Virus record (IMG/VR): IMGVR_UViG_3300044691_000583
Location: 1-27,254 of that record
DNA from: a virus
Strand: one strand, 5' to 3'
Length of the DNA stretch: 27,254 nucleotides
The notes under the pieces are model-generated. The model saw only the letters and a list, made by a program, of their open reading frames with translations. It was not told the DNA's origin and made no database searches. The translations under genes and the position numbers were made by a program. Of the stretch, positions 1 through 14,017 are shown one piece after another (the first letter of the stretch is position 1; each line of letters starts with the position of its first letter).

Positions 1-1023
1 GGAGGTCAGATCTACCGTTGTGAAACCTGACGGGCCAAACACGATGTCACTAGGGATAGCCGGATTATAGTAGCCACACTGTAGAATCTGGTTTCCAGCC
101 GAAAGGTAAGGCCCATAGTAAAGCGCCTGAAAGAAGTAGTTGTGTGGCTGAGACGACGGCACTCCGCGGCCAAGATTGGCATAGATGTTGTCTCTCGCGA
201 AACACCTTCTCCACACCGTATTCATGGACGTAGTGCTGAATGCAGACTCAAATGCGCCGGAGGAGTAAACGTCCTCGATCACGCAGTTATTGCTCCTAGA
301 CAAGGTCGGAACGTCCATATCGATTTGGATATGCGCTCCTGTAGGAGAGTTGGCCCCCTTTAGGTATCCTTGCCCAATATAACAATTAGACGATGCAAAT
401 ATGTTTATAGAGTCTTCTGGCCATGAGTTCTGGGGATCGTTCTCGCAATAGAAGTTTGTAAGCTTCGAGTTGTTGCTGAACGCAATCGCGACCATCTGCC
501 CTGCCGGGCCCGGCCCGCAAAAGTTGTACCCTTCGATGTAATCAAAGACTCCATTTGGAGCACTTCTTGAATATATCCCAGCCGACGCACCCGTCATTCG
601 CACGCGTTTAACTATCGGGTTTAACGAGTTTTCGATGTGGAACGCGTAGAAGGACGGGTCGCTCCCTGGAACCTGGCCAGATGTTTTCCCGATGTTTTCG
701 GTAATCACATTCTCCGCGTGGAAGTAGTCCTTTCCCACGCAGTATACACCTGGGCCACCACTGTGGCGGATGCGACAGTTGAAAAGTTGCACCCCAGAGT
801 GCGACACCGTGAGACCTGGCGTTCCGGTTGCTGTGATGTCCAATCCGGAGAGCACTTGTCCGTTCTGCGACGTGGTGATTGGCCCGGAGGGAGTCAGCGA
901 CGTGATTGGCTTGTGACCTAGCACTGCAAGCCGCGCTGCTGCCACCGCCTCGGCGCGCGGCAGGGCGGCGAACGCCGCCAGCGCCGCACTGCCGCCGATC
1001 AATCTTCTGCGGGAGAGGTTCAC
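1..1023 (-). CDS. Beta-helix-like exported protein with Tat-type signal, 3' end outside window
   Basis: This reading frame is open for 341 codons and runs off the left edge, so the protein is longer than seen here. It starts at a GTG whose last two bases fall in the stop codon of the upstream gene (GTGA overlap). The first 26 residues look like a twin-arginine leader: S4-R5-R6-R7-L8-I9, a hydrophobic Ala-rich stretch, then A-E-A as a possible cleavage site. The rest has short turns rich in Gly, Asn, Ser and Val, with phrases such as LFNCRIRHSGGPGVYC and CVIEDVYSSGAFES, as in right-handed parallel beta-helix proteins (pectate-lyase-like fibres and depolymerases). No catalytic residues can be assigned. 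Base composition falls below that of the rest of the window (about 35% GC at 361-420), suggesting recent acquisition. A polysaccharide-binding or -degrading tailspike, or an exported conversion protein, are the main options. Confidence 0.75.
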   Translation of the reverse strand, partial: MNLSRRRLIGGSAALAAFAALPRAEAVAAARLAVLGHKPITSLTPSGPITTSQNGQVLSGLDITATGTPGLTVSHSGVQLFNCRIRHSGGPGVYCVGKDYFHAENVITENIGKTSGQVPGSDPSFYAFHIENSLNPIVKRVRMTGASAGIYSRSAPNGVFDYIEGYNFCGPGPAGQMVAIAFSNNSKLTNFYCENDPQNSWPEDSINIFASSNCYIGQGYLKGANSPTGAHIQIDMDVPTLSRSNNCVIEDVYSSGAFESAFSTTSMNTVWRRCFARDNIYANLGRGVPSSQPHNYFFQALYYGPYLSAGNQILQCGYYNPAIPSDIVFGPSGFTTVDLTS

Positions 1024-2561
1024 TGGCGGGATGGGCCGTTGGCGTTGACGTAGACAGTTCCGGTTACAGCCGTTTCGAGTGCGAACTCAAGCAGCGTGTT
1101 GGCGGCCGCGCCGCACTTTGGGATCGTGAACGACGATGGCGACATGGACCCAGCCGCCACGCCCAACGCAACCCTCCACAGCACTGCGCCACCAACTCCA
1201 TCTCGAATCACGGCGGTGGTTGCCGCGCCCAGCGTCGTCCACGAGATATCCACACTGGAGACGCAGTTCTTCCGGGTGGCGTTGGCCGCTATGAGGGTCA
1301 CCGCGGTCGTGGTGTTGGTGACGCCGGTTCCAGCATAATTCCAGACGTTCGCCCCATCGTCTAGCAGGTCCACAATGAGATTGTGGTTACGACAACCGAA
1401 GCGGACCCAACCCCACTTCTGCTCTGTCTGCACAGCCGGCAAGGTATCTCGGCATTGCGCCGCCATGGCCGCGCCGCACACAACCGTATTGGAGTAATCG
1501 CCGCCGCTCTCGGCGATCTGACAGGGATTTGTCGTCCCGGTCGAAGTGCTCCACCCCCCAATGATCAGGGGAGCTGGAGTGCAGCTCGTGCCTCGCGGAC
1601 ACGGCCCTTGGACAGTGAAGATGTTGCCAGTCGGAGGCGCGTTGATCGTGCCGAGTTGATCTGACGCGATCACAACTGGAGACGACAACGACGATATCTG
1701 CTGGCCCGTCGTGAATGAAGCCGGGTTTCCCGCGCTATCTACAATAGTGATCGGATTGATAACTTGCGTCAGGCCAGACGAGCCTGAGGCCGCAAGTTGC
1801 ACGGTGGCAGACCCAGACGCCCACGCTGAAGCGCGCACCCGAATGTTAGACATGCCGGTTGCATCCACGCGGAACACGCCTGGGGCGGTGATTGTCTTGG
1901 TCGTCAGCGCCGCGCCGAGGATTTTTCCTCCGGCTGGTCCATAAGTACCGCCGTCCGCCGTCTCCTCAATGTTCAACGTCCCCGAGAACGTCCCGGTAAC
2001 AGTCAGTGTCGCCGAAGAGTGGCCATTGAGGGGCCACGTCAATGCCGAGTTCACCGTGGGCGTGCCGGTGACCAAGCTGACGCTACTCTGGCCACTCAGG
2101 GTGGCTGTCGCGCTGTCCGCGGCGGTTATGGTGGAGGCGCTTGGGCGGTAGTCAGGGTCGCTCGGCAGCACGACGGGGGCACTGCCAGCCTTGGTCGCCT
2201 GACCCAGGCTGGGTGTTTTTCCGTCAAGCGACGAAAGCGACCCGTTCGCAGTCACTTGATTTGAAGCTGTCGCCGCTCCAGACGGCAGCGCTGAAGAGTT
2301 CACGACCACGCCGTTGGTGGTGCCCGGGGTCGACTGATCAAGGCCGACCTTGCCGATAACATTACTTCCGGCTGGGGTTGCCCCCGTGAGGTCGGTGTGA
2401 ATTTGGTCGAGCTTCCCGTTCGCGCTCGCCTGATTGCCCGCCGTCGCGGGGTCCACCGCGGCCGAATTGTCGGGCTTCCGCAGGATGACCGAGGTCTGCG
2501 CCGACGCCGCTCCCGCGATGAGAGACGCCGCAATCGCGACAGTCGCGAATAGACGCCTCAT
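1020..2561 (-). CDS. Fibre-like protein with Sec-type signal peptide
   Basis: A 513-aa protein. I chose the ATG at 2561 because it forms an ATGA overlap with the upstream stop and gives a textbook signal peptide: MRR, then a hydrophobic stretch, then A-S-A before QT, with predicted cleavage after residue 21. The mature N-terminal half carries low-complexity phrases seen in phage fibre and adhesin-like proteins (TASNQVTANGSLSSL, GSAPVVLPSD, and later SSPVVIASDQ, a diverged repeat of the latter). The C-terminal part holds eight cysteines, including CPRGTSC and PKCGAA, which suits disulfide bonding outside the cytoplasm. Virion structural proteins normally lack signal peptides, so this is odd for its place right after the tail genes. 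It could be an exported host-surface protein, a periplasm-matured fibre, or a fibre gene that picked up a leader. Function is not recognised. Confidence 0.8.
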   Translation of the reverse strand: MRRLFATVAIAASLIAGAASAQTSVILRKPDNSAAVDPATAGNQASANGKLDQIHTDLTGATPAGSNVIGKVGLDQSTPGTTNGVVVNSSALPSGAATASNQVTANGSLSSLDGKTPSLGQATKAGSAPVVLPSDPDYRPSASTITAADSATATLSGQSSVSLVTGTPTVNSALTWPLNGHSSATLTVTGTFSGTLNIEETADGGTYGPAGGKILGAALTTKTITAPGVFRVDATGMSNIRVRASAWASGSATVQLAASGSSGLTQVINPITIVDSAGNPASFTTGQQISSLSSPVVIASDQLGTINAPPTGNIFTVQGPCPRGTSCTPAPLIIGGWSTSTGTTNPCQIAESGGDYSNTVVCGAAMAAQCRDTLPAVQTEQKWGWVRFGCRNHNLIVDLLDDGANVWNYAGTGVTNTTTAVTLIAANATRKNCVSSVDISWTTLGAATTAVIRDGVGGAVLWRVALGVAAGSMSPSSFTIPKCGAAANTLLEFALETAVTGTVYVNANGPSRQ

Positions 2562-3045: not shown

Positions 3046-4083
3046 CTACGGGCTCGCTTCGGTGTCCCCGTCGCTGGTGTCCGTCTCGGAGTCCGTCGCC
3101 TCGCCCAGCGTCTCCATGGTCAGCGTCGTGCGAAAGCCTCGGCTCTCCAGCACGTGCCTGACGCTCTTCACGACGTACTCGCCGTCCACGTCTGGATCGA
3201 AGCCCTTGGCGAGGATCACGCACTCGGCGAACACGTCCGGCAGGCCCGCACCCTCAGTCTCGAAGTTCGCCGTGCCGCGCTTGAGGTCGTGCTGCGCAGC
3301 GAACGACGCGCGGTGCGCCTCGTTTTTGGTGGCGTAGAGCACGCGCACGCGATGCTCCGGATTGCCCGCGCCGGAACGCACGCGGCCGCGCCGCCCGTGC
3401 TTATGGTCGCCGTACTGCGCCGACACTGCCTTGTAGTCGCCCCGGTTCGCCGATGTGGCCGTCCATGTGGCCACCATGCCGGGCGTGAGCGTTATCGTCG
3501 GCTTCGCGCTGCCGCTCGGCAGTTTGGTCGCGCCCTTCTTGGCGATGACGATCTTGCCGTCCGCCAGCTTGAAGGTCGCACCATTGCGGTGCGCCAGGCG
3601 CGTCAGGAAGTGGACGTCGGACTCGTGGCTCTGGTCGATGTGGCCGATCGGGCGACCAGCGACCTCGGGGTCCACCACCGCCGTCAGGCCGTGCCGCCCG
3701 GCGACCTCATTGACGATCTGGCCGACCGTCTTGCCGTGGTAGGAGCGCGCGCGCGCCGCGCGGATGTCGCTGGTCAGCTCGGCGGCCTTGGCGCTCACGT
3801 GGAGCATCCGGCCGCTGTCGCCGCCCCGCTTCGTCCACTGGTCGACCTTGTAGCGGCCCATGTAGACGGGCGTCGGCTCGTAGCCGAGCCACACCTGAAT
3901 TTCAGTGTTGGGCGCGGGGGCCTTGAATCCCTCGCGGTCGTCCAGTTCCAACTCGACGGCGTCGGACTTGCGGCCGGCCTCGTCGGTCACTGACAGGCTG
4001 AACAGCGGCCCGCGCTTGCCGAAGACCTCCGAGGTGACATCCTTGCCGCCGATGATCAGGCGCGCGGCAGGAGTCCTGCTCAC
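3046..4083 (-). CDS. D: Baseplate hub protein, P2 gpD family (late control D)
   Basis: This is the P2 gpD family (Phage_GPD), equivalent to the T4 gp27 baseplate hub that connects tail tube and spike. Residues near the start (RLIIGGKDVTSEVFG), then LELDDREGFKAP, EIQVWLGYEP and VYMGRYKVDQWTKRGG follow the family layout. The central FLTRLAHRNGATFKLADGKI segment is the strongest family signature, and the C-terminal part ends with VKSVRHVLESRGFRTTLTME. The GTG at 4083 (345 aa) is preferred because it forms a GTGA overlap with the stop of gene X; a GTG six bases further upstream is also in frame. It follows U and X, as in many P2-like elements. The extreme C-terminus is acidic and Thr/Ser-rich, possibly a disordered tail. 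Confidence 0.92.
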   Translation of the reverse strand: MSRTPAARLIIGGKDVTSEVFGKRGPLFSLSVTDEAGRKSDAVELELDDREGFKAPAPNTEIQVWLGYEPTPVYMGRYKVDQWTKRGGDSGRMLHVSAKAAELTSDIRAARARSYHGKTVGQIVNEVAGRHGLTAVVDPEVAGRPIGHIDQSHESDVHFLTRLAHRNGATFKLADGKIVIAKKGATKLPSGSAKPTITLTPGMVATWTATSANRGDYKAVSAQYGDHKHGRRGRVRSGAGNPEHRVRVLYATKNEAHRASFAAQHDLKRGTANFETEGAGLPDVFAECVILAKGFDPDVDGEYVVKSVRHVLESRGFRTTLTMETLGEATDSETDTSDGDTEASP

Positions 4084-4301
4084 GACCACAGCCTCGTCGA
4101 CTGCTTGCGGTCCTTCTGCACCGGCACGGGGATGCGCAGCGTGAGGCCGGCCGGCAGCTTCGGGCCGCGCTCGGCCAGGCCGGGGTTGGTGTCGAGGAAG
4201 GTCGCGGTCGCGCTGGAGTCGCCGAACCGCTTGAACATGATCAGGTCGGCCGCATCACCCTCCTGGGTGATGTAGGTTTCAAACGTGAAGGCGTCACTCA
4301 T
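4080..4301 (-). CDS. X: Tail protein X, LysM-like
   Basis: A 73-aa protein of the P2 gpX family (Phage_tail_X), a small LysM-like protein needed for tail formation that probably binds near the hub. The phrases YITQEGDAADLIMFKRFGD, TNPGLAERGPKLPAGLTLRIP and the final basic tail match the family (typically about 65-75 aa). Two ATGs are in frame, at 4307 and 4301. The run of five Gs ends three bases before the first and nine before the second, so 4301 is the better spaced. It overlaps the end of U and is coupled to D by GTGA. Confidence 0.9.
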   Translation of the reverse strand: MSDAFTFETYITQEGDAADLIMFKRFGDSSATATFLDTNPGLAERGPKLPAGLTLRIPVPVQKDRKQSTRLWS

Positions 4302-10762: not shown

Positions 10763-11563
10763 TTAGAGCGCGAGCGCGAGTGCGGTGACTTCGTCGAGGA
10801 GGTCATCCACCTCGCTCTTGAGGTAGACCGTCGATATTGTGATGGCGGTGAACTTCGTCCACGACACTTTGTCGCCGGCCGTCAACGCGACCGCGAAGAC
10901 GATGTTCGTGCCGGATATCACGGTCACGTCGCTCGGCAGCACCGTCAGGCCGTTCTTCGCCACGATGATGTTGCCGGGGTCATACCCGCCCGTGACGGCC
11001 ACGGAGGTCTCGCCGCCGGCAGCCGTGAACGCCTGGCGCTGCAAGATTCCCTGCACGATCGAGCCTGTGTCGACCCACGTCGCCCCGTTGAAGACGCGCA
11101 TCTTGCTCAGTGTCGTGTCGAAGAACAGCGCGCCGGTCGCGACGGGATCGCCGTTGTCGTCCAGCGTCGGTGCGGTCGTGTGCGGGCCGAGGTACTTCGA
11201 GCGGTAGGTCTCGACGGCGGTCGCCATCTTGGCCAGCGTGTTGAACTCTGTCGGCGCGCCGCCGCGAAGGTCCGAAAGAACCTGGGCCTCCATCTGCGCC
11301 GGGAGGTCGATGGCCGTCCAGTGATCGGAAAGCGTCTGTAGGGTGTCGCCGATATTCGTCGCCTGATCGAAGACCGGAATCAGGGCCGCAGTCAGACGAT
11401 CGAGGCCCACCTGCTTCAGCGAGTCGATCGCCGCCACGAAGTCAGGAGTCACCGCTTCGAGCGCCCGCAGGCGCGCGATGATGTAGGCCATCGCCGCGTT
11501 CATCCGATCTGGCGAGGCGACCGGATTGGCGACGAAGTCCAGCTCTGTCGGGAGCGTTCCCAT
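10763..11563 (-). CDS. Putative tail fibre protein
   Basis: A 266-aa protein. The N-terminal 130 residues are helical (MNAAMAYIIARLRALEAV). Residues about 125-165 carry KYLGPHTTAPTLDDNGDP, ATGALFFDTTLSKMRVFNGATW, a small beta module very common in phage tail fibres. The C-terminal part (AGGETSVAVTGGYDPGNIIVA, KNGLTVLPSDVTVISG) matches another repeated fibre module. These modules support a fibre or fibre-connector role. It lies where P2 encodes fibre H, although it has no similarity to P2 gpH that I can recognise. Confidence 0.8.
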   Translation of the reverse strand: MGTLPTELDFVANPVASPDRMNAAMAYIIARLRALEAVTPDFVAAIDSLKQVGLDRLTAALIPVFDQATNIGDTLQTLSDHWTAIDLPAQMEAQVLSDLRGGAPTEFNTLAKMATAVETYRSKYLGPHTTAPTLDDNGDPVATGALFFDTTLSKMRVFNGATWVDTGSIVQGILQRQAFTAAGGETSVAVTGGYDPGNIIVAKNGLTVLPSDVTVISGTNIVFAVALTAGDKVSWTKFTAITISTVYLKSEVDDLLDEVTALALAL

Positions 11564-11758: not shown

Positions 11759-14017
11759 TTAGAGCGCGTAGTCTTTGCGCCAGGCGAAGTGGAAGATGTT
11801 GAGCGCTGAGTCCGTCGTGGCGTCGAATTCGATCTTGTAGCTGCTGAGTGCCGAGCCGAGGTTAAACAGCCACGTCCGCTCGATCGCGCCATCCACCTGC
11901 GCCACATCGACGAAGGACGAGGCGCTGGTGAGCGTCGTGTAGCCCGCGCCGGAGCGCAGCTTGCAGAGCGCCGTGTGGTGCGCGGCGTCGAAGCCGCCTT
12001 CCAGACGCGCGATCACGCGGATGCTGGTCGACGGAGCCGGCAGGGTCCGCGCCGTCGAGATGTGGGCCAGCGTGGTGCGCGGGATCGACACCTTGACCTG
12101 AGAGTTGGTCAGCGTGACGCAGGGCATCACGTCGGGCGTGCCGGTGAAGACGGCGCGCAGCGGCAGCAGCGGCGGGATGTTGCCGCCGGCCGTCAGCGCG
12201 GCCACCGTCGCCTGCTGGAGCGGAAGCCACGAGCTGCCCACCTGCACTTCGTAGGTGAGATCGGTCGACCCTGGCACGATGGATGCGGCCAGGATGTCGA
12301 TGGTGGTGATGCCGCCCGACAGCGTCAGGGCCGTCATCGGGATCACGGTGCGCGATTGACGGAATTTCGCCGCGTAGAGCGAGAAGCACAGGTCGCGGGT
12401 GCCGTCGCCCTGCTGATACGCACCGTCCAGCACGTAGAAGAAGGTGCCCTGCGGGAAGTTGGAGCCCTGCGTCGTGGCGAGCCAGTGGTCAGCCGCCGTG
12501 ATCACCACGAAGGCGTAGCGCGTGCCGCCCTTCAGGAAGATGGGGCCAACGGGGATTTGCGTTTCAGCGTTCAGGACGAGCGCCGAGCGATCGACGTCGA
12601 CCTTGCAGACGGCGTTGGCCAGATCGGGCGAACCGCGGTCCACTTCGCAGATCGCGAGCGTGATGCCGCCCGTGGCCGCCAGGCGCGTGAAGGTCAGGCC
12701 GACCGCGTCGAGCCACATATCGTTCGCGTTCAGGAAGGTCTCGGCCACCTGCGCGCCGGGCACGCTGTAGCTGGTGGTGACCTCTTCCCAATACGGCTCT
12801 TCGTAGGTGTCGTACCAGAACTCCTCGACGCGAACGGCATCGTGGCCTGCGCCGAATTGCGTGGCCGTGATGCTGTCGACAGCGAACGTCTCGCCGTCCT
12901 TCTGGAAGGTCTGGCCGAGCGGGTCATACTGGCCGGACAGCCACCAGGCCGAGTTCGTGCAAACCGTGAAGGCGGTGCCGTATCTGATGCGCGTGCGCGA
13001 CATCATCTTCTGCACCATGGCGTGGGTCTGGTAGGTGTAGGCGGAAACCTGCACCTCGCCCTGCTGGGGTCCGACCGTCATGCGCTGCGCGCGGTCGTAG
13101 GCGGGGAACAGCACGCCTCCCACGATCTTCGCATTCGCATCCAGCGAGTTGAAGATGCCGAGCGCCGTGACATTGGCGTTCAGGTCGGCGAAGCGAATGC
13201 CTTCCTGCACCTTGGCCTGGAAGTTGGCGTTCGTCAGGTCGCTGGTGGTCTGAGACAGGAAGAAGTCGGCGGCCGAGTCGGCGGCGGCCGAAGGGATTCC
13301 ATTCTTGGCTTCCAGCACCGCCAGACGCGCCAGTGAGCGCCCGTAGACCTCGACGCCGACCAGGCCCGTGGTCTTGCTGGCGAGCTTGGCCAGGTCGGAG
13401 CCCAGCGACACGATCTGCGGCGCGGCGACAGCCTCGAACGCCTCCAGTACGGCGGCGCGGGCGGAGACGCTGGACACGCTATCGAGCGCGTTCGCCGCCA
13501 CCATGGTTACGGAGACGACGCCAGTCGGCGACAGCACGACGGTCGCCACCGCGAGGACGCCCGCGTCGAGGATCGGGGAGACCGGATCGGGCGACTCGGA
13601 GCCATAGGAGACGCCGATGTTGACCACGCGAGCGTGCGTCTGGGAGACGGTGCGTGGCTCGGACGCGCCGGTCTCTTCGTTGATCAGGAATTCGCGCGGC
13701 GCGTTGTCGGTGTCGACTTCCGTGCCCCAAATCGCGATGGTCGCGATCTTCTTGGTGGACACCGGCAACGAGGTGGTGAAATCTTTCACGAGCGGAGTGG
13801 CCATGACGTAGACCTTGCCGGCCGAATAGAGGCGGCCAACGGACACTGTCACGACGGCTGCGGCCGTCTTGGTCGCCACGAGGCCAGCGTACTTCCGATC
13901 CGCAGTTACCGAGTCACCCACCAAGTCATCGAAGGACCCTTGGATATAGTCCTGCATCTTGGTGTAGTCGGCAGGGTCATTGTCCATGCCGTCGTAGAAG
14001 GTGACGCGGCTTTCCAT
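11759..14017 (-). CDS. Large baseplate or fibre structural protein, DUF4815-like
   Basis: A 752-aa protein directly after tail gene I, beginning at ATG 14017 with AGAGGT at good spacing. The N-terminus (FYDGMDNDPADYTKMQDYIQ) and the mid-protein YDPLGQTFQKDGETFAVDSI with a following NANDMWLDAVGLTFTRL resemble the DPLxQTF region of DUF4815-type phage structural proteins, recognised from memory with moderate confidence. The middle has helical Ala-rich segments and the C-terminal 250 residues are beta-rich (YEVQVGSSWLPLQQATVA). The gene sits where P2 has the long fibre gene H, so it is probably the baseplate-proximal fibre or fibre-support protein. Confidence 0.78.
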   Translation of the reverse strand: MESRVTFYDGMDNDPADYTKMQDYIQGSFDDLVGDSVTADRKYAGLVATKTAAAVVTVSVGRLYSAGKVYVMATPLVKDFTTSLPVSTKKIATIAIWGTEVDTDNAPREFLINEETGASEPRTVSQTHARVVNIGVSYGSESPDPVSPILDAGVLAVATVVLSPTGVVSVTMVAANALDSVSSVSARAAVLEAFEAVAAPQIVSLGSDLAKLASKTTGLVGVEVYGRSLARLAVLEAKNGIPSAAADSAADFFLSQTTSDLTNANFQAKVQEGIRFADLNANVTALGIFNSLDANAKIVGGVLFPAYDRAQRMTVGPQQGEVQVSAYTYQTHAMVQKMMSRTRIRYGTAFTVCTNSAWWLSGQYDPLGQTFQKDGETFAVDSITATQFGAGHDAVRVEEFWYDTYEEPYWEEVTTSYSVPGAQVAETFLNANDMWLDAVGLTFTRLAATGGITLAICEVDRGSPDLANAVCKVDVDRSALVLNAETQIPVGPIFLKGGTRYAFVVITAADHWLATTQGSNFPQGTFFYVLDGAYQQGDGTRDLCFSLYAAKFRQSRTVIPMTALTLSGGITTIDILAASIVPGSTDLTYEVQVGSSWLPLQQATVAALTAGGNIPPLLPLRAVFTGTPDVMPCVTLTNSQVKVSIPRTTLAHISTARTLPAPSTSIRVIARLEGGFDAAHHTALCKLRSGAGYTTLTSASSFVDVAQVDGAIERTWLFNLGSALSSYKIEFDATTDSALNIFHFAWRKDYAL

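Follow-up and report, generated by a model that had tools for sequence, protein, structure and literature searches.

The tail operon analysed here ends in two consecutive genes, P0002 and P0001, which carry a Sec-type and a Tat-type export leader, respectively. This pair had been singled out in a sequence-only reading, and the observation was confirmed; judged by their motifs, by comparison with shuffled sequences and by the cysteine content of the proteins, both leaders look functional. Homologues in other viral contigs indicate that exported modules of this kind recur, the P0001/P0002 block being one example.

The window, which is an entire virus record of 27,254 bases, contains a morphogenesis operon on the minus strand for a contractile P2-like tail, as identified by Pfam and PHROG-type profile matches. 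Its head part comprises the small and large terminase, portal, protease, decoration, major capsid protein and neck genes, and its tail part comprises the baseplate V/W/J/I genes, a gene for a 752-aa protein, fibre candidates and the sheath, tube, tape measure, gpU, gpX and gpD genes. Profile matches and comparison with relatives identified the gpD baseplate hub gene (3046..4089, minus strand) as the final conserved tail gene. Judging from the tail relatives, the host is probably an alphaproteobacterium, and no lysogeny genes were seen in profile searches of the whole window. The 752-aa protein (11759-14017; phrog_17470) follows the baseplate genes. It also occurs in four viral contigs and in phages of Bradyrhizobium and Aurantimonas, and it is a useful marker for this tail lineage.

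Directly behind gpD lies a block of three genes, all on the minus strand. P0003 (2558..2995) encodes a 145-aa leaderless partner without cysteines, and a small leaderless gene comparable to it also precedes the exported gene in contig L110. The product of P0002 (1020..2561) is 513 aa long and has a Sec leader, phage-type repeats (GKVGLDQSTPGTTN), a C-terminal beta domain and eight cysteines; a well-spaced GGGAG lies upstream of the start codon at 2561. P0001 (1..1023), which is incomplete at the contig end, encodes a right-handed beta-helix protein of at least 341 aa with a Tat leader and eight cysteines. P0003 and P0002 overlap by ATGA, and P0002 and P0001 by GTGA, with the GTG at 1023 as the start of P0001. 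The GTGA coupling and the twin-arginine leader described earlier for P0001 were thus both borne out, and the description of the gene is corrected in that it is truncated and encodes a beta-helix protein.

The block was probably acquired horizontally, because its GC3 is 0.63-0.72, compared with 0.87-0.91 in the genes for gpD, tape measure, sheath, fibre and the 752-aa protein, because gpD precedes lysis-type genes in relatives, and because P0001 and P0002 had no match in five related viral records. The relatives in question are Aurantimonas AmM-1, Bradyrhizobium BDU-MI-1 and the viral contig L002, which share the tail cluster, and the same order was judged by eye in a further viral contig, L015. 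A scan of genome contigs with gpD returned distant relatives only. Deviant GC3 is a sign of recent acquisition, and P0003, which had been suspected of belonging with the exported pair, indeed appears to be a member of the acquired block.

The putative Sec leader of P0002 (residues 1-21; 2499..2561, minus strand) reads MRRLFATVAIAASLIAGAASA/QTS, the slash marking the predicted cleavage point, and has a positive n-region, a hydrophobic h-region and an AxA site, as the sequence-only reading had described. It received a score of 5.8 from a heuristic of our own, which was used for all Sec leader calls in place of SignalP. When applied to 108 annotated CDS, the heuristic gave three positives, all among the 67 CDS of AmM-1, and one of these, a candidate false positive, is the annotated large terminase. 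When residues 2-60 of P0002 were shuffled, 132 of 5000 shuffles (2.6%) reached the leader cut-off, so the leader by itself is merely suggestive. P0002 contains eight cysteines (2.4 expected), all within residues 321-483. The protein matched no PHROG, and so no tailspike or tail fibre family, and it had no match among PDB sequences. The earlier term "fibre-like" is based on repeats common to phage structural-type proteins and is not backed by a family match.

P0001 begins with MNLSRRRLIGGSAALAAFAALPRAEA (residues 1-26; 946..1023, minus strand), a putative Tat leader with the twin-arginine motif SRRRLI, an h-region and an AEA site. The Pfam TAT_signal model (PF10518) aligned with residues 2-22 at 14.8 bits (E 0.028), below the model cut-off of 22.7. 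Tat-type leaders arose in 91 of 20000 shuffles of P0001 (0.5%) and were found in only one of 2224 ORFs of related viral loci. Export of P0001 is supported by this leader and by its eight cysteines, against 1.6 expected, and P0001 is likely a Tat substrate, although this assignment is less tested than that of P0002. The protein matched Pfam Beta_helix (9e-5), and it gave no match to PHROGs, to tailspike or tail fibre families or to PDB sequences; no catalytic residues were identified in it. Structure predictions were partial or poor (P0001, single-sequence model, pLDDT 57, partial; P0002, without an alignment, pLDDT 35), so that fold matches are uninformative for both proteins; the fold search with P0001 returned no significant match.

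Two candidate relatives of P0001 were considered. Assignment to the TAT-translocated repetitive protein family TIGR03808, which likewise combines a Tat leader with a repetitive protein, was rejected, since the match reached 9.2 bits against a cut-off of 120 and covered only the leader (residues 1-37). A beta-helix protein of Methylobacterium bullatum (L018) could be aligned at 30% identity with almost the whole of mature P0001, but it lies on a large bacterial plasmid record, has two domain copies with no cysteines in them, and has no recognised leader. The two domains of the L018 gene (6642-8924) are beta-helices nearly identical to each other and related to P0001. No locus was confirmed in a broader profile scan for beta-helices.

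Viral contigs, phages and plasmids searched with the whole P0001, P0002 and P0003 proteins gave nothing or at most one match each, and searches of 385 and 397 alphaproteobacterial genomes found P0001 in one genome and P0002 in none. The tblastn searches of isolated phages, one with a leader-bearing homologue and one with a repeat consensus, also returned nothing, for which the low-complexity filter is possibly responsible. Since the whole-protein searches were nearly empty, homologues were sought by motif: the P0002 repeat motif GKVGxDQxTPGTTN was used to draw viral contigs, and P0002 repeat motifs led to more than 100 homologous viral ORFs. The first set comprised 70 distinct complete ORFs among the matches listed, of which 21 had a Sec leader and 49 were leaderless. 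The contigs remaining from the same motif scan, previously unused, served as a hold-out, with 9 leader-bearing and 25 leaderless ORFs listed.

Exported proteins of several Gram-negative bacteria favour even cysteine numbers (PMC7678975). In the window, the virion genes from gpD to the portal encode 30 cysteines in 6456 aa, about 0.46 per 100 aa. The mature parts of the 21 leader-bearing ORFs listed in the first set contained 1, 2 (five ORFs), 4 (seven), 5, 6, 8 (five) or 10 cysteines, with a median of 4, versus a median of 1 in the 49 leaderless ORFs listed (Mann-Whitney U, p = 5e-9, an indicative value that overstates independence because the homologues are related to one another). Even counts were found in 19/21 of the leader-bearing ORFs versus 9/34 of the leaderless ORFs with any cysteine, among the matches listed. 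The hold-out agreed: all nine leader-bearing ORFs listed had an even count (2-10 cysteines), and the 25 leaderless ORFs, among which L153 and L178 have leaders just under the heuristic cut-off, had a median of 1. Over both sets of matches listed, leader-bearing ORFs had 1-10 mature cysteines, even in 28/30, and leaderless ORFs had no even bias.

The cysteines also occupy fixed positions. A PTxGTDTP C-terminal domain was collected by a separate pattern scan that listed 13 leader-bearing and 93 leaderless copies. Among the copies listed, two fixed columns were each cysteine in 10 of the 13 leader-bearing domains versus 0/93 and 3/93 of the leaderless ones, as in APTCGTDTP...GIGFCLT versus APTVGTDTP...GIAFAIT. 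The C-terminal domain of P0002 (1020..1331, minus strand), aligned with leader-bearing homologues, contains a Cys433/Cys483 pair. Among the copies listed, the leader-bearing L324 and L153 have this pair in the same columns. One further copy of the domain, L335, was scored leaderless and is a frameshifted copy of L324. The two genes (L335:2314-2928 and L324:4963-5553) are near-identical exported genes, and the frameshift in L335, between leader and C-terminal domain, reflects assembly error or decay. In leader-bearing L323 and L341, the P0002-type domain has a different cysteine pair. That one fold should carry different pairs of cysteines able to form disulphides in its exported versions would be difficult to account for if export were not real.

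These results argue well that the leader-bearing homologues are built for an oxidising compartment. Even, enriched cysteines and a fixed pair in P0002 are likewise what is expected of an oxidised extracytoplasmic fold, and cysteine content, parity and fixed pairs give its leader support independent of the heuristic. We consider it very likely, from these sequence features, that P0002 is exported through Sec.

We investigated the genes around the motif genes, taking as neighbours those on the same strand within two genes. Among the matches listed, a leader was found in 23/66 neighbours of leader-bearing versus 5/145 neighbours of leaderless motif genes in the first set, in 16/31 versus 4/85 in the hold-out, and in 39/97 versus 9/230 in both together. 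All 23 leader-bearing neighbours listed in the first set, a few of which were entered twice, had even cysteine counts, one of them zero, and 15 of the 16 listed in the hold-out were even. The loci checked had a phage context: portal and terminase genes in L323, tail genes in L081, L110 and L325, a small terminase in L130, and an internal-virion or endolysin-type match in L111. Another contig, L164, has a Sec-plus-Tat pair like P0002/P0001 beside what were judged by eye to be podovirus-type tail genes. The sequence ELDLYE in its Tat protein looks by eye like a GH16 active site, for which a search gave no confirmation. The earlier judgement that such exported proteins are unexpected beside tail genes thus holds against textbook tailed phages; the arrangement is not unique, since similar exported clusters occur in many viral contigs.

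Most leader-bearing neighbours had no Pfam match. Those with matches included a pectate-lyase-like/tailspike match in L074, a tail-fibre match in L130, virion structural families, among them the LamG type, in L139, L092 and L153, and a GH74 xyloglucanase-like protein in L155 (5e-22 to a solved chain). The last (L155:3729-6338), an exported protein with a C-terminal Big_7 domain, adjoins a motif gene. A LamG-like gene near the motif gene was exported in L092 and L114 (4 Cys) and leaderless in L122 (0 Cys). Six or seven leader-bearing genes, most with even cysteine counts, stand in a row in L130 (2-5498). Beside the exported cluster of L111, an acyltransferase-like membrane protein (12118-13221, minus strand) was noted by eye, possibly for O-antigen modification. 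Beta-helices and LamG-like domains, in combination with fibre-like repeats and at least one glycoside hydrolase, would point to glycans outside the cytoplasm, and among the roles proposed earlier some neighbours favour glycan binding or processing.

From these features we infer that the block may act on glycans. P0001 and P0002 would be made late, alongside the tail proteins, as is favoured by the ATGA/GTGA coupling behind tail genes. Both would cross the inner membrane and form disulphides in the periplasm. Their targets may be glycans of the host envelope or of the host's exopolysaccharide, which they would bind or process. They would leave with the virions at lysis, and their action would keep progeny from being trapped on debris or on neighbouring cells. 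P0003 would remain cytoplasmic and may be a virion decoration protein. For the explanation as a whole, from an acquired export block through Sec/Tat export and disulphides to glycan action that eases progeny release, we see the chances as evenly balanced; outer-membrane crossing counts against it.

The same proteins might instead be fibres matured outside the cytoplasm, that is, virion accessories that form disulphides in the periplasm and dock on released virions at or after lysis. The repeats and C-terminal domains are common to leaderless phage structural-type proteins, there are similarities to tailspikes, tail fibres and virion structural families among the exported neighbours, and the LamG-like gene occurs in exported and leaderless form. 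In some phages, attachment of tail fibres and tailspikes can take place in a lysate, which also speaks for such docking. It would be demanding in a diluted lysate, however, and the window has other fibre candidates (10763-11563). We regard this reading as possible, though the less probable. Because there is an enzyme among the neighbours and we know of no docking route for exported fibres onto virions, we slightly prefer free glycan-acting proteins.

A role in superinfection exclusion or receptor masking at the surface or in the periplasm, or in conversion of the lysogen by a prophage module that is expressed there, would fit an accessory block that is missing from related tail clusters and differs in GC3, and exported phage proteins of these kinds are known. 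The start/stop overlaps with late tail genes favour late expression, however, and the window shows no lysogeny genes; we consider such a role unlikely. The heuristic does give false positives, and the leaders could in principle be chance or non-functional sequences on ordinary structural proteins assembled in the cytoplasm. A chance leader would not be expected to predict cysteine number, even parity, position-specific pairs and the leaders of neighbours, with the association replicated in the hold-out and fixed pairs in two domains. The cysteine evidence led us to reject this highly improbable explanation.

The building blocks belong to phage families already known. Exported phage proteins are in themselves nothing new, and the same is true of Tat beta-helix proteins. 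The repeats and C-terminal domains of P0002 are also those of the leaderless GKVGIDQTTPGTTN and APTVGTDTP families of viral contigs, which are repeat/beta-sandwich structural-type proteins, but P0002 and the leader-bearing subset differ from them by a Sec leader and by cysteine pairs in places where the leaderless copies have none. P0001 is a right-handed beta-helix like phage tailspikes and pectate-lyase-like proteins, from which it differs by its Tat leader, its eight cysteines and the absence of a tailspike family match or a significant fold match. SAR endolysins, spanins and filamentous coat proteins also use host export; the first two are lysis proteins and the third are membrane-assembled, whereas P0001 and P0002 are fibre-like proteins of a tailed phage. 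Tailed phage fibres are thought to be built in the reducing cytoplasm. In a collection of open literature, with few subscription papers and no bioRxiv preprints, we came upon no account of tailed-phage clusters of exported, fibre-like proteins with paired cysteines.

These clusters suggest a little-described class of phage products that act outside the cytoplasm, probably on surface sugars. We doubt, but do not dismiss, the broader proposition that many tailed phages pass receptor- or glycan-binding parts through the host export and disulphide machinery to join the virion only after lysis; if true, it would add an extracytoplasmic assembly step to tailed phages. If the recurrent exported class is real, such proteins could be found by a sequence rule, a leader combined with paired cysteines within a structural operon, its members would be candidates for secreted depolymerases, dependence on host dsbA or tatC would be a testable phage requirement, and many phages would work late in infection through the Sec, Tat and Dsb systems of their hosts.
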